Shown: one piece after another, positions 54,991-58,589 of the stretch | Position numbering within the stretch: the stretch's first letter is position 1 | Layout: each line of letters starts with the position of its first letter | Source: Polynucleobacter sp. | GTDB lineage: Bacteria; Pseudomonadota; Gammaproteobacteria; Burkholderiales; Burkholderiaceae | Reading direction: 5' to 3' | Assembly (NCBI GenBank): GCA_030157655.1 | Contig: JAOAUK010000030.1 | Location: 1-59,747 of the forward strand | Length of the DNA stretch: 59,747 nt | Position numbers and translations under genes: made by a program | Notes under the pieces: generated by a model | Seen by the model: only the letters and a program-made list of their open reading frames with translations | Databases searched by the model: none | What the model was told of the DNA's origin: nothing

Positions 54991-55956
54991 ATGCGCAAAA
55001 AGATCATCGTCCTAGATGACTACGAAAATTCGTACGAGAAGTTATCGGATTGGTCCAAGATCAAAGCTGCCGCTGATGTGGAGATTTTTAATCAGCCTTT
55101 GTACGGCCAAGAGTTACTTAAAACCCTAGAAAAAGCCCATGCTTTGGTATTAATGCGTGACCGCACACCATTGCCAGCCAGCCTGATTGATCAACTATCC
55201 CATCTTGAATATGTGGTTTTTACGGGTACCCGTAATTTAGCCCTGGATGCCGCCGCACTTAAACAAAGAAACATTCCTATTAGCCACACTGAATGGGGCC
55301 CTTCTAAAGACAGCACGGCTGAACTGACCTGGGCACTAATTTTGGGCCTACATAAACGCCTAGTAGAACAAAACCAATTACTCACCCAGCAAGCTTGGCG
55401 CAATGAGCACTCTTTATTACCGGTATTAAAAGGTCGCACCTTGGGCTTGATTGGCCTTGGTGAAATCGGCAGCCGTGTAGCTAAAGTGGCCTTGGCTTTT
55501 GGCATGAAAGTTGTCACCTGGAGTCCGAATATGACCCCAGCAAGGGCAGAAGCTGTGGGTGCTGAGTCCGTCTCTTTAGATGAGTTGCTGCAACAATCAG
55601 ATATTGTTTCTTTGCACATTGTGGCGAGCGCCACAACCAAAGGTTTACTCAACCAAGAGAAACTAGCTTTGATGAAAAAAGACGCTTTGTTAATCAATAC
55701 ATCGAGATCAACTTTGGTAGATACACATGCACTTGTTGTAGCTCTTAATGATCGAACGATTGGCGGAGCTGCGATTGATGTGTTTGATGCTGAGCCGCTA
55801 GTTGCTGATCATCCCTTGCGCAACACCCCCAATACATTATTAACACCGCACTTAGGCTTTGTGGCACAACCAGTGTTTGAGAGTTTTACAAAAGGCGTTG
55901 TTGAATGTTTAGAGGCTTGGTTAAATGGCCAACCAGTTATCCGCCCTTTGCCTTGA
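54991..55956 (+). CDS. D-2-hydroxyacid dehydrogenase family protein
   Basis: A 321-residue NAD(P)-dependent reductase. The Rossmann loop is GLIGLGEIGSRVAKVAL; the catalytic triad is in INTSRSTLVD (Arg), DVFDAEPL (Glu) and LTPHLGF (His). Substrate is unknown. GGAG lies 8 bases before the ATG. It is divergent from the TctC-CMD pair, which hints at uptake and oxidation of a common hydroxy acid (inference). Its 3-prime end overlaps the Smr gene by 32 bases. Confidence 0.92.
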   Translation: MRKKIIVLDDYENSYEKLSDWSKIKAAADVEIFNQPLYGQELLKTLEKAHALVLMRDRTPLPASLIDQLSHLEYVVFTGTRNLALDAAALKQRNIPISHTEWGPSKDSTAELTWALILGLHKRLVEQNQLLTQQAWRNEHSLLPVLKGRTLGLIGLGEIGSRVAKVALAFGMKVVTWSPNMTPARAEAVGAESVSLDELLQQSDIVSLHIVASATTKGLLNQEKLALMKKDALLINTSRSTLVDTHALVVALNDRTIGGAAIDVFDAEPLVADHPLRNTPNTLLTPHLGFVAQPVFESFTKGVVECLEAWLNGQPVIRPLP

Positions 55957-56389
55957 TTGCGGCAACCCCAGAAGAGCACTCGATAAGGTGTGCCCTTTCT
56001 GCGGTTCATCAGAAATGCCAGAAGTTCCTAAAAAGCTGGCGGGTATTTACACCCTCAATTTAGAACATCAACTCCCAACTGTTGATCAAGCGATTGAAAA
56101 GTTTGATCGCACATTAGAAGAGTTATCCGATACGGCGATGAGAGTTGTGAAAGTGATCCATGGTTATGGCTCAGGTGGCAAAGGTGGTCGCATCAAAGAA
56201 GCTGTGCGACAAGAATTGATTTATCAACGCCGCAGTCATTTGATTGATTCTTTTTACGCAGGTGAAGATTTGTTACCCGGTCGAGAAACCTACCAAGAAC
56301 TCATGAAACGTCACCCAACTCTGAAGAGTCTATTGACCAAAGATGTTTTTGGTAATGCGGGCATTACTTTGATTGTTTTAAAACGATGA
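55925..56389 (+). CDS. Smr-domain protein with N-terminal zinc ribbon
   Basis: A 154-residue protein. A zinc ribbon at the start (C9-X2-C12, C23-X2-C26 by ORF numbering: CLDCGNP, CPFCGS) is followed by an Smr domain with VIHGYGSGGKGGRIKEAVRQEL. Smr domains nick or bind nucleic acid. GAGG lies 9 bases before the ATG, inside the upstream gene. The first zinc ligand is encoded in the overlap. The stop overlaps the next start (ATGA). Confidence 0.82.
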   Translation: MANQLSALCLDCGNPRRALDKVCPFCGSSEMPEVPKKLAGIYTLNLEHQLPTVDQAIEKFDRTLEELSDTAMRVVKVIHGYGSGGKGGRIKEAVRQELIYQRRSHLIDSFYAGEDLLPGRETYQELMKRHPTLKSLLTKDVFGNAGITLIVLKR

Positions 56390-56586
56390 GCACATCACAA
56401 ATATGCCCACAGTGTGGCACCACTTTTGGCTGCGATATTGCGCAGGGTAAAACGCACTGTTGGTGCATGGAGTTACCCGCCATCCCAAAAGACATCACCG
56501 CTAAAACAGCAGGATTATCTGAAGGTTGTTTGTGCCCCGCTTGCCTCAAAAAACTGGCCCAATCAGTTGGCCACAAAAATGATTGA
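56386..56586 (+). CDS. Cysteine-rich CWC family small protein
   Basis: A 66-residue protein with cysteines in CPQCGTTFGC, HCWC and CLCPACLKKL, the Cys-rich CWC pattern, probably binding zinc. The WC pair and its size fit the family. Function is unknown. ATGA overlap with the Smr gene suggests coupled translation. Confidence 0.82.
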   Translation: MSTSQICPQCGTTFGCDIAQGKTHCWCMELPAIPKDITAKTAGLSEGCLCPACLKKLAQSVGHKND

Positions 56587-56609
56587 AGCTAGCTAGTTCA
56601 CTCAGCCAA

Positions 56610-56732
56610 TTACTCAGAACGACTGCAGACCCATTCTCTGCGTTGCCACTCACCTGGTTTTTCAGCAAAAACCATCCAAATTACCAAACCGCTAATAACT
56701 GACCAAACTGGGTTAGAAATCAATGTTTTCAT
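56610..56732 (-). CDS. 40-residue single-pass membrane protein, likely SOS-controlled
   Basis: A small ORF too short for most gene finders. Start ATG at 56732 with AAGGAG 7 bases before it; stop TAA at 56610. The peptide begins MKTLISNPVWSVISG, has one hydrophobic segment (about residues 9-23), and ends in a charged, Trp- and Arg-rich tail. A near-perfect LexA box lies 45 bases upstream. Size, single helix and SOS control recall TisB, SidA and similar damage-induced peptides, but I see no sequence match to any of them. Function is unknown. Confidence 0.6.
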   Translation of the reverse strand: MKTLISNPVWSVISGLVIWMVFAEKPGEWQRREWVCSRSE

Positions 56733-56777
56733 CGTTATGCTCCTTGAGACTCCATTAAATACAAGGCCTAAGCCATA

Positions 56778-56797
56778 TACTGTATAAATATACAGTA
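56778..56797. promoter_or_regulatory. LexA (SOS) box
   Basis: TACTGTATAAATATACAGTA fits CTGT-N8-ACAG and differs by one base from the classic E. coli consensus TACTGTATATATATACAGTA. It is 45 bases from the ATG of the 40-residue ORF on the minus strand and 113 bases from the Cys-rich gene on the plus strand, so it could control either or both. Confidence 0.85.
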
Positions 56798-56910
56798 TTT
56801 TAGAAAAAAGTCAAAGAATTTAATAAAAAGATGAAAAATGGCCTGAAATGGGCAAATCGTCACTAGGTCAAATAATGGGTTTATCCTATCGCCTAAAGGG
56901 AAAATGACGC

Positions 56911-57099
56911 ATGACAACAACAGAAATGATCTTTGATGGGCTGGTCTGGCTCATCGGTGGCTTAGTGGTGATTTATATGAGCAAACGCTATTGGGTGATG
57001 TTTCGCCATCGCAACACCCCCACTTCTGGTAGCTGCAATGACCAAAGCTCATGCTCCTCTTGCCCGAGCAAACAACAATCAACAAAGGATGCTCGATGA
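56911..57099 (+). CDS. Small Cys-rich single-pass membrane protein
   Basis: A 62-residue protein: one helix (about residues 9-23) then a basic stretch and a tail with C42, C48 and C51 (SCNDQSSCSSCPSK). This resembles FeoB-associated Cys-rich membrane proteins, but no feoA/feoB is here, so the label is only by shape. AAAGGG lies about 10 bases before the ATG. Its stop overlaps the next start (ATGA). A LexA box is 113 bases upstream. Confidence 0.7.
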   Translation: MTTTEMIFDGLVWLIGGLVVIYMSKRYWVMFRHRNTPTSGSCNDQSSCSSCPSKQQSTKDAR

Positions 57100-57545
57100 A
57101 CGTATCTTTAGCTAATCAAAGATCTTGGCTCAAGTTGTCACAAGTTCTGGTGGCCCTGGTATTTTTTATTGGGATGAATACGTCATTTGCACAAGCCGAT
57201 GTGCCAGAGAGCAAAAACTACGAAGGTATTCAGTACATCACTGGCGGTATTGGCAGTGAAGAATCAGAGGCCATGCTTGAACTAGGTAAGAAATGGCCGC
57301 TGGTATTGGAGTTTTCTCAGGCTCATCCACAAAGACCTCTGTGGGTAGCCGATGTGACTGTAAAGATTATCGATCAAAAGAAAAAGGTGGTGTTTAACGC
57401 CATCAGTGACGGCCCTATCTTGTTACTCAATTTAGCCCCCGGCAACTATGAGTTGCAACTCTCGTTCGAAGGTAAGCCCCTAAAAAGAACCGTGAAGATC
57501 GAAGAGAACAAGCCTATCAAGCTGTCGATTACCTGGCCTATCTAA
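57096..57545 (+). CDS. Periplasmic protein of unknown function
   Basis: About 149 residues from the ATG at 57096, which overlaps the preceding stop (ATGA); a longer frame lies inside that gene. A Sec signal (VLVALVFFIGMNTSFAQA) precedes a domain with beta-rich segments such as PLWVADVTVKIIDQKKKVVFNA and LLNLAPGNYELQLSFEGKPLKRTVKI, which recall carboxypeptidase-regulatory or Ig-like domains. I do not recognise a defined family. It pairs with the small Cys-rich membrane protein. Confidence 0.7.
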   Translation: MNVSLANQRSWLKLSQVLVALVFFIGMNTSFAQADVPESKNYEGIQYITGGIGSEESEAMLELGKKWPLVLEFSQAHPQRPLWVADVTVKIIDQKKKVVFNAISDGPILLLNLAPGNYELQLSFEGKPLKRTVKIEENKPIKLSITWPI

Positions 57546-57566
57546 TCTTCATCATTAATTATCTCC

Positions 57567-58589
57567 ATGCGATCAGCCTTTATAGATAACCTCAAAGGAC
57601 TGTCTTGCATCCTGATCATGCTTCACCATTTGGCTTTTTATGGCCCTATGTCCGATGTCGCTATGTCAGTGATTCCGGGAGTGATTGATTGGTTATTTGT
57701 ATATGGTCGGATGGCTGTTGCAGTGTTTTTGGTGATTGGTGGATTTCTAACAGGCCAAAAACTGCTAGAACAGAATGTCTTTGTTCATAAGAGCGTGTTT
57801 CAGTTAATTTGGCATAAGTACCAACGCTTGGTGATTCCTTACCTAGCAGCCATCATCCTCGCAATCATTTGTTCATTTATAGCAAGCCAATGGATGCAAC
57901 ATGCATCCATCTCGGCGATGCCAGAACCTAAACAATTAATCAGTCATTTGTTCTTTTTACAAAACCTGCTCGGCTATGAATCACTCTCAGCAGGTCTTTG
58001 GTATGTGGCCATGGATTTCCAGTTATTTGCAGTAACAGCTTTGGTACTTTTCTTGATCGATACCATCCTACCGACTCATTGGTCTTATCAGCGCACACAA
58101 TTAATTAGCGTACTGATCGTTGCTTTGGTAACGCTGGCCTCATTGTTCATTTTCAATTTGGACGATAGTTATGACGCTACTTTTTTATATTTCTATGTAG
58201 CCTATGGTCTAGGTATTTTGGCTGCGCAAATTGCCCAGACAAAATCAAGAATGTTTTTGTTATTTTTGTTATTAGACTTTTTGCTGTTTGCCTTGTACCT
58301 CGACTTTAGAGGTCGAGTATTGATTGCCGCTATCACTGCTGCTGTGCTTTGCTTGAGCTATCAAAGCTTATGGGTCAACGCTAAATTTTGGATGAATCCA
58401 CTCGCCAAGTTGGGTCGTATGTCGTATTCGATTTTCTTAGTGCACTTCCCTGTTTCACTGGTGGTTAGCAGTATTTGGGTACAACTCTATCCAGAGAACC
58501 CATGGCTTAACGTTGTTGGCATAGTCACATCTACACTACTAAGTTTGTTTGTTGCGATTCCTTTTTATCAATTCATAGAGAAGCGTTAA
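57567..58589 (+). CDS. Acyltransferase family 3 membrane protein
   Basis: A 340-residue protein with about ten helices. The start RSAFIDNLKGLSCILIMLHHLAF holds the family catalytic histidine, and a later MSYSIFLVHFPVSLVV block is also typical. Such enzymes acetylate or succinylate sugars, lipids or glycans. The substrate is unknown and no polysaccharide genes are nearby. It lies 21 bases after the periplasmic gene and may share its transcript. Confidence 0.87.
   Translation: MRSAFIDNLKGLSCILIMLHHLAFYGPMSDVAMSVIPGVIDWLFVYGRMAVAVFLVIGGFLTGQKLLEQNVFVHKSVFQLIWHKYQRLVIPYLAAIILAIICSFIASQWMQHASISAMPEPKQLISHLFFLQNLLGYESLSAGLWYVAMDFQLFAVTALVLFLIDTILPTHWSYQRTQLISVLIVALVTLASLFIFNLDDSYDATFLYFYVAYGLGILAAQIAQTKSRMFLLFLLLDFLLFALYLDFRGRVLIAAITAAVLCLSYQSLWVNAKFWMNPLAKLGRMSYSIFLVHFPVSLVVSSIWVQLYPENPWLNVVGIVTSTLLSLFVAIPFYQFIEKR

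Follow-up and report, generated by a model that had tools for sequence, protein, structure and literature searches.

In Escherichia coli, SulA does the job of holding back cell division, and TisB is a bare amphipathic helix under antisense RNA control. To our knowledge, the SOS mini-proteins known so far are mostly unrelated to each other. Caulobacter provides the two closest described cases. One is SidA, a LexA-controlled inner-membrane division inhibitor of 29 amino acids, as presented in PMC4211646. The other is DidA, a division inhibitor of 71 amino acids that is paired with the WYL activator DriD. According to PMC12340889, DriD uses a pseudo-palindrome that covers the -35 element and keeps a constant spacing to the -10 element, activates didA after DNA damage, and does not drive its own gene. 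Here, we describe a candidate counterpart in Polynucleobacter that is tied to LexA in some lineages and, it seems, to a WYL regulator in others.

The peptide gene in the window

The stretch analyzed, hereafter the window, is a 59,747-nucleotide contig of Polynucleobacter sp. that carries the following features.

56610..56732, minus strand: peptide ORF of 40 amino acids, stop included; present once in each of 49 genomes out of 186 from the genus, with a dN/dS of 0.12 in its own clade
56667..56711, minus strand: predicted hydrophobic helix, residues 8 to 22, from AlphaFold and hydropathy
56625..56678, minus strand: conserved core from W19 to C36, consensus W-xx-F-x-E-xx-G-E-[WF]-x-[RK]-x-E-W-[VI]-C
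56740..56745, minus strand: ribosome-binding site AAGGAG, by direct reading
56778..56797, no strand assigned: LexA box TACTGTATAAATATACAGTA, one mismatch from the consensus
56787..56814, minus strand: promoter TTGACT-16-TATATT, with its -10 element within the LexA box

A preliminary description of this DNA had reported a 40-residue ORF with an AAGGAG ribosome site, one helix, and a LexA box with one mismatch 45 bases before the ATG. Each of these elements was recovered where it had been placed; the 45-base gap was counted by hand, and the helix is predicted within the hydrophobic stretch of the window's peptide. No other site in the window comes within three mismatches of the LexA consensus, and none arose in 100 shuffles. 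The promoter, on the same strand as the ORF, matches at 10 of 12 positions, a match that is weak when taken alone (2 promoter-like sites versus 1.2 expected from shuffles). In all 14 genomes of the window's clade (clade I), the LexA box lies over the -10 element of TTGAC[ATC]-16-TATATT, and a GGAG/AGGA-like site precedes the peptide. Positions 56911-57099 encode a divergent 62-amino-acid protein with a hydrophobic stretch and a Cys-rich tail, which resembles FeoB-associated proteins weakly and below the cut-off.

The family and its LexA boxes

The peptide occurs in 49 of 186 Polynucleobacter genomes, always as a single copy (46 genomes when searched with one sequence), and the remaining 137 hold no detectable copy. 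The carriers fall into clade I (14), clade II (18), clade III (14), and clade IV (3). None of 24 other genera sampled yielded the peptide, and the 11 matches among 398 genomes of the family all came from Polynucleobacter (1 of 25 genera). Searching genomes with named records returned 32 loci; one bears the title Thermoflexus, and the titles of the other 31 read Polynucleobacter, Burkholderiaceae, or betaproteobacterium. P. cosmopolitanus MWH-MoIso2, a cultured strain of clade I, is among the carriers. The peptide on the Thermoflexus hugenholtzii contig (L131) belongs to clade III, and the record is probably mislabelled or mis-binned. A set of 5.8 billion proteins contributed 43 relatives of 24 to 53 residues, none named beyond hypothetical protein; this search admitted 0.55 to 1.75 times the query length, so that longer proteins with the motif would be missed. 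Pfam, NCBIfam, and PADLOC offered no named family for the peptide, and its profile had no match in PDB. Likewise, the titles and abstract openings of open-access papers on Polynucleobacter LexA, the SOS response, or WYL do not mention it. The earlier statement that no relative is known therefore holds for named families but not beyond them: unnamed relatives are many and, within the reach of the searches, belong to this genus. In the three clade IV genomes (L082-L084), the peptide has diverged; in L083, a response-regulator-like gene follows it.

The dN/dS ratio is 0.12 in clade I, 0.14 in clade III, and 0.12 in clade II (clade II, 36 equal-length pairs, 15 distinct sequences, 16 of 18 loci; clade III, 13 of 14 loci; pS, 0.59-0.64), and variation in clade I falls mostly on third codon positions (29 of 40) rather than on first (12) or second (6) positions. 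Judged by these substitution patterns, the peptide is evolving under purifying selection. Two other coding possibilities were considered and rejected. Antisense frame 1 stays open in all 14 cases, with a dN/dS of 0.22, yet the sense ratio is lower and variation concentrates at third positions; the same two observations speak against out-of-frame coding.

Control sites were surveyed in the 150 bases before each peptide start. A LexA core without mismatch lies 33 to 79 bases upstream of the peptide in 14 of 14 clade I and 14 of 14 clade III genomes, whereas none of the 18 clade II and 3 clade IV genomes has one. The preliminary description had proposed to look for the ORF and the box in related genomes, and two sister clades have kept both (28 of 28 cores; dN/dS, 0.12 to 0.14), an outcome that strongly favors its reading. 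The genome of the window also encodes lexA, with a box of its own, CTGTATAGAATGACAG, just upstream. The strict form ACTGT-N8-ACAGT has 18 sites in six of the 14 clade I genomes (the window's and five others). The first downstream ORF is the peptide at six of them, recA at four, a umuD-like gene at three, a Y-family polymerase gene at two, and lexA at one, the SOS gene names being our readings of the sequences. Both remaining boxes belong to one genome (G069): one is letter-identical to the four recA boxes, and the other is unrelated. From the ORF readings and the letters of this recA-like box, 17 of the 18 strict boxes stand at SOS genes or the peptide. Several also face a second gene, namely, a response regulator (recA boxes), an HNH-like gene (umuD boxes), or another enzyme (polymerase box of G053).

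In clade III, the peptide lies downstream of an acyltransferase-like gene in the five loci read, a locus that differs from that of clade I. Here, weaker hexamers of the -35-like and -10-like kind flank the box, which takes up their 17-base spacer; these pairs are the best of several offsets, with 8 to 9 of 12 matches. In 13 of 14 clade III loci (L069-L081), a second LexA-like site is visible about 84 to 105 bp ahead of the peptide, close to where the upstream gene ends.

At the sequence level, the case for a new SOS-controlled peptide is strongly supported. In the preliminary description, it figured as a possible new damage-induced membrane peptide; the predicted damage control and the novelty stand on these comparisons, whereas the membrane nature does so only partly, the strong helix being specific to clade I.

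The palindrome and the WYL regulator of clade II

All 18 clade II genomes carry the palindrome GCTCA-N5-TGAGC without mismatch before the peptide, together with no LexA core of fewer than two mismatches. In the 28 LexA-type genomes, the best palindrome has at least two mismatches, and the three clade IV genomes have neither site before the peptide. The same palindrome precedes genes for a WYL regulator. Among the 24 WYL genes read out of 84 matches, it is exact in 20, has one mismatch in 3, and is absent from 1 (G042), which lies divergent. A -10-like hexamer with A2/T6 follows the palindrome at 11 bp in every one of the 18 peptide promoters and in 20 of 23 WYL promoters; the three WYL promoters with the palindrome and without this hexamer are those of L107, L027, and L020. 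In two clade II genomes (L020 and L027), the WYL gene and the peptide gene are arranged tail to tail, and both of these adjoining WYL genes depart from the 11-bp layout in their own promoters. Adjacency was discarded as the link between regulator and peptide because most WYL genes sit elsewhere; the shared operator links them instead.

WYL matches (E up to 1e-20) occurred in 17 of 18 genomes of clade II, the one exception being 80% complete, in 1 of 14 clade I genomes, in 6 of 14 clade III genomes (including one fragment, G180, and four at 45 to 47% identity that are maybe not orthologues), in 1 of 3 clade IV genomes, and in 46 of 137 peptide-free genomes. With kinship ignored, a Fisher test of the association with clade II gave 2.6e-7 against the rest and 3.0e-6 against clades I and III. 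The bare palindrome is unspecific, with 132 forward sites in 27 genomes versus 36 for a reversed control, and clade I genomes lacking the WYL gene contain it as well. Adding the spacing and the A/T positions left 62 sites versus 2 in the control, in 12 genomes (7 with the peptide and 5 without); the spacing was derived from the same promoters, and several of these sites lie in or near unrelated ORFs.

The regulator has WYL and WCX domains over the cut-off and matches no helix-turn-helix family at E 0.01, its residues 2-45 giving weak matches to such repressors far below the cut-off. Relatives of solved structure comprise PafBC and WYL chains, among which 8tp8, a structure we take to be DriD, and 9pfq align over residues 26-319 of 326. 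The likeness to DriD is distant (8tp8, E 5.5e-6; 7tzv, which PMC12340889 gives as DriD, E 9.2e-6). Since the operator geometry is the same in kind as that of DriD, the protein is likely an activator, probably acting over the -35 element as DriD does. In clade II, it would drive the peptide by binding the operator common to its own gene. A literature search on a Polynucleobacter WYL regulator found no paper among open-access articles.

Among the genes behind the palindrome are those for small proteins that are exported or membrane-bound, for a VIT-domain protein, for a cytosine methylase, and for restriction-like proteins, and these are not clear repair genes; therefore, the signal of the regulator may not be DNA damage. 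Promoter-like sites with the palindrome and the A/T positions cluster within about 35 kb of WYL genes, some of them back to back (G013, G075, G044, G111, G063, and G184), and the clustered sites (L171-L177, L181, and L182) lie near genes for small exported repeat, VIT-domain, methylase, and restriction-like proteins, perhaps a WYL-governed island. In four peptide-free genomes (L148, L150, L164, and L185), a tiny ORF of 43 to 47 codons sharing the motif NNFNGISLA..LSYCAVLK stands behind the WYL palindrome and may encode a second effector.

It is quite conceivable, if short of an even chance, that the clade II regulator answers a signal other than damage, such as phage or envelope stress, and that in this clade the peptide serves as a general stress effector. 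The non-repair content of the regulon points that way, as do the match of PADLOC WYL profiles to the regulator and the company that WYL proteins also keep with defence systems and islands according to PMC9122601. However, the solved relatives include PafBC and DriD, both described as DNA-damage regulators, and a sister part of the genus puts the same peptide under LexA.

The relation between both kinds of control was placed on an unrooted tree of one gene, read as sdhA, from 31 genomes (the window's, 24 other peptide carriers, and six peptide-free). A branch with 100/100 support parts clades I and III from clades II and IV and the peptide-free genomes; support for clade II is 62/93. The simplest history would be one of descent with gene moves, later losses, and one regulator exchange, in either direction on this unrooted tree. 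Across these genomes, the peptide seems wired either to LexA or to the WYL regulator, never to both. The novelty lies in a family that spans the genus and in an effector for which LexA and WYL control have apparently been exchanged. Such a pair of wirings amounts to a natural experiment on how an SOS response and a non-SOS response replace each other, and a predicted operator, GCTCA-N5-TGAGC, and a predicted regulon are now available for the WYL regulator.

Mode of action and described counterparts

AlphaFold models the window's peptide as a helix at residues 8-22 followed by a loose tail (mean pLDDT, 71; pTM, 0.35; residues 11-20, pLDDT 85). The best 19-residue octanol score is 10.7 for the window's peptide and 11.7 for another clade I member, versus 1.8 for one clade III peptide, -5.4 and -3.2 for two from clade II, and -3.2 for one from clade IV. 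The other clades' hydrophobic stretches seem too short for a classical membrane span, so that membrane action is maybe not the shared function. Conservation resides in the tail: F-x-E-x8-E-W-x-C is found in 41 of the 43 proteins (exceptions, P0040 and P0043), and clade IV retains only part of the core consensus. Invariant positions were read from chosen rows, 27 and then 28 (including 27 of the 43 proteins), from which those two exceptions were left out. As far as the alignment and hydropathy go, the strong helix is a feature of clade I and the Trp/Glu/Cys motif is the conserved part. Of the helix peptide of the TisB, SidA, or DidA type that the preliminary description had envisaged, the strong helix is retained in the window's clade, but the conserved core is Trp-rich and polar. 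This motif fits a protein-docking peptide for which the membrane would be the place rather than the target.

SulA was found over the cut-off in none of the 186 genus genomes by a search that recovers the E. coli control, with two matches at E 9e-4 below the cut-off. The post of a division brake would thus be vacant in Polynucleobacter, which is a hint rather than proof. We favor, tentatively and at somewhat under an even chance, an SOS-controlled, genus-specific mini-protein that serves as a damage-induced, protein-binding brake at the membrane, most likely on cell division, and that is WYL-driven elsewhere in the genus. LexA, seated on the -10 element of the promoter, would keep the peptide gene off, and DNA damage would turn it on through LexA cleavage. 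In clade I, the N-terminal helix may hold the peptide at the inner membrane, from where the Trp/Glu/Cys tail could act on a protein target, perhaps the divisome. The most likely outcome would be slower cell division, or slowing of another membrane-side process, during DNA repair.

A damage-induced peptide with a target other than division is also a real possibility, albeit a tentative one; it might modulate a protease, a polymerase, a transporter, or an envelope enzyme. The conserved part being the polar Trp/Glu/Cys motif and not the helix suits this alternative, as does the lack of a sequence pointer to the divisome and of any PDB or NCBIfam match. We found no specific counterpoint to it, beyond the fact that SulA, not found over the cut-off, leaves the role of a division brake available.

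A TisB-type toxin, whose helix would insert, lower the membrane potential, and form persisters, appears improbable. The LexA box and the hydrophobic helix with its octanol score of 10.7 speak for it in the window's clade. However, a clade III relative with the same LexA control scores 1.8, with 8 unbroken hydrophobic residues versus 15 in the window's peptide, and it is the acidic, Trp-containing tail that is conserved. A TisB-like pore is thus unlikely, given the conserved motif and the clade-specific helix. Moreover, an Rfam search of the 1.8 kb around the gene (55900-57700) gave no match at E up to 1, which leaves no known antisense antitoxin at the locus and disposed of a known regulatory RNA as a candidate.

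That the palindromic box, standing between both genes, serves the divergent gene at 56911-57099 and leaves the peptide ORF a bystander is very improbable and was dismissed, since the promoter faces the peptide ORF in 14 of 14 genomes, the 62-amino-acid gene occurs in 7 of 14 at the filter used versus box and ORF in 14 of 14, a LexA box also stands before the peptide in clade III, where the locus differs, and the peptide ORF is under codon-level selection.

Returning to the protein-binding brake that we prefer, a broader proposal is more doubtful still: a mini-protein family whose control has been exchanged within one genus between LexA and a DriD-like WYL activator would make the two pathways interchangeable for one effector, and this effector could be the missing SulA-type checkpoint of Polynucleobacter. 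The family, with its codon-level evidence of translation and 28 of 28 LexA cores, makes such ideas testable in freshwater bacteria in which SulA was not found.

The likeness to TisB, SidA, and DidA is one of control and size. TisB is a LexA-controlled small hydrophobic peptide, as the peptide in the window's clade would be, but neither a bare amphipathic helix nor antisense RNA control is seen for the latter. YneA and SosA of the Firmicutes, compared here by description, are likewise SOS-induced and are division inhibitors. SidA is tiny, SOS-controlled, and at the inner membrane as described in PMC4211646, features that the window's peptide would share; the Polynucleobacter family differs from this description by a conserved Trp/Glu/Cys tail and by the weak helices of its other clades. 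DidA and DriD share with the clade II arrangement a small protein and a palindrome over the -35 element at a fixed distance from the -10 element. The DriD operator reads ATACGAC-N7-GTCGTAT instead of GCTCA-N5-TGAGC, and the Polynucleobacter WYL gene carries the site itself, whereas DriD is not self-driven. Finally, Caulobacter SidA and DidA are two separate proteins, whereas Polynucleobacter has one peptide that sister lineages keep under LexA.
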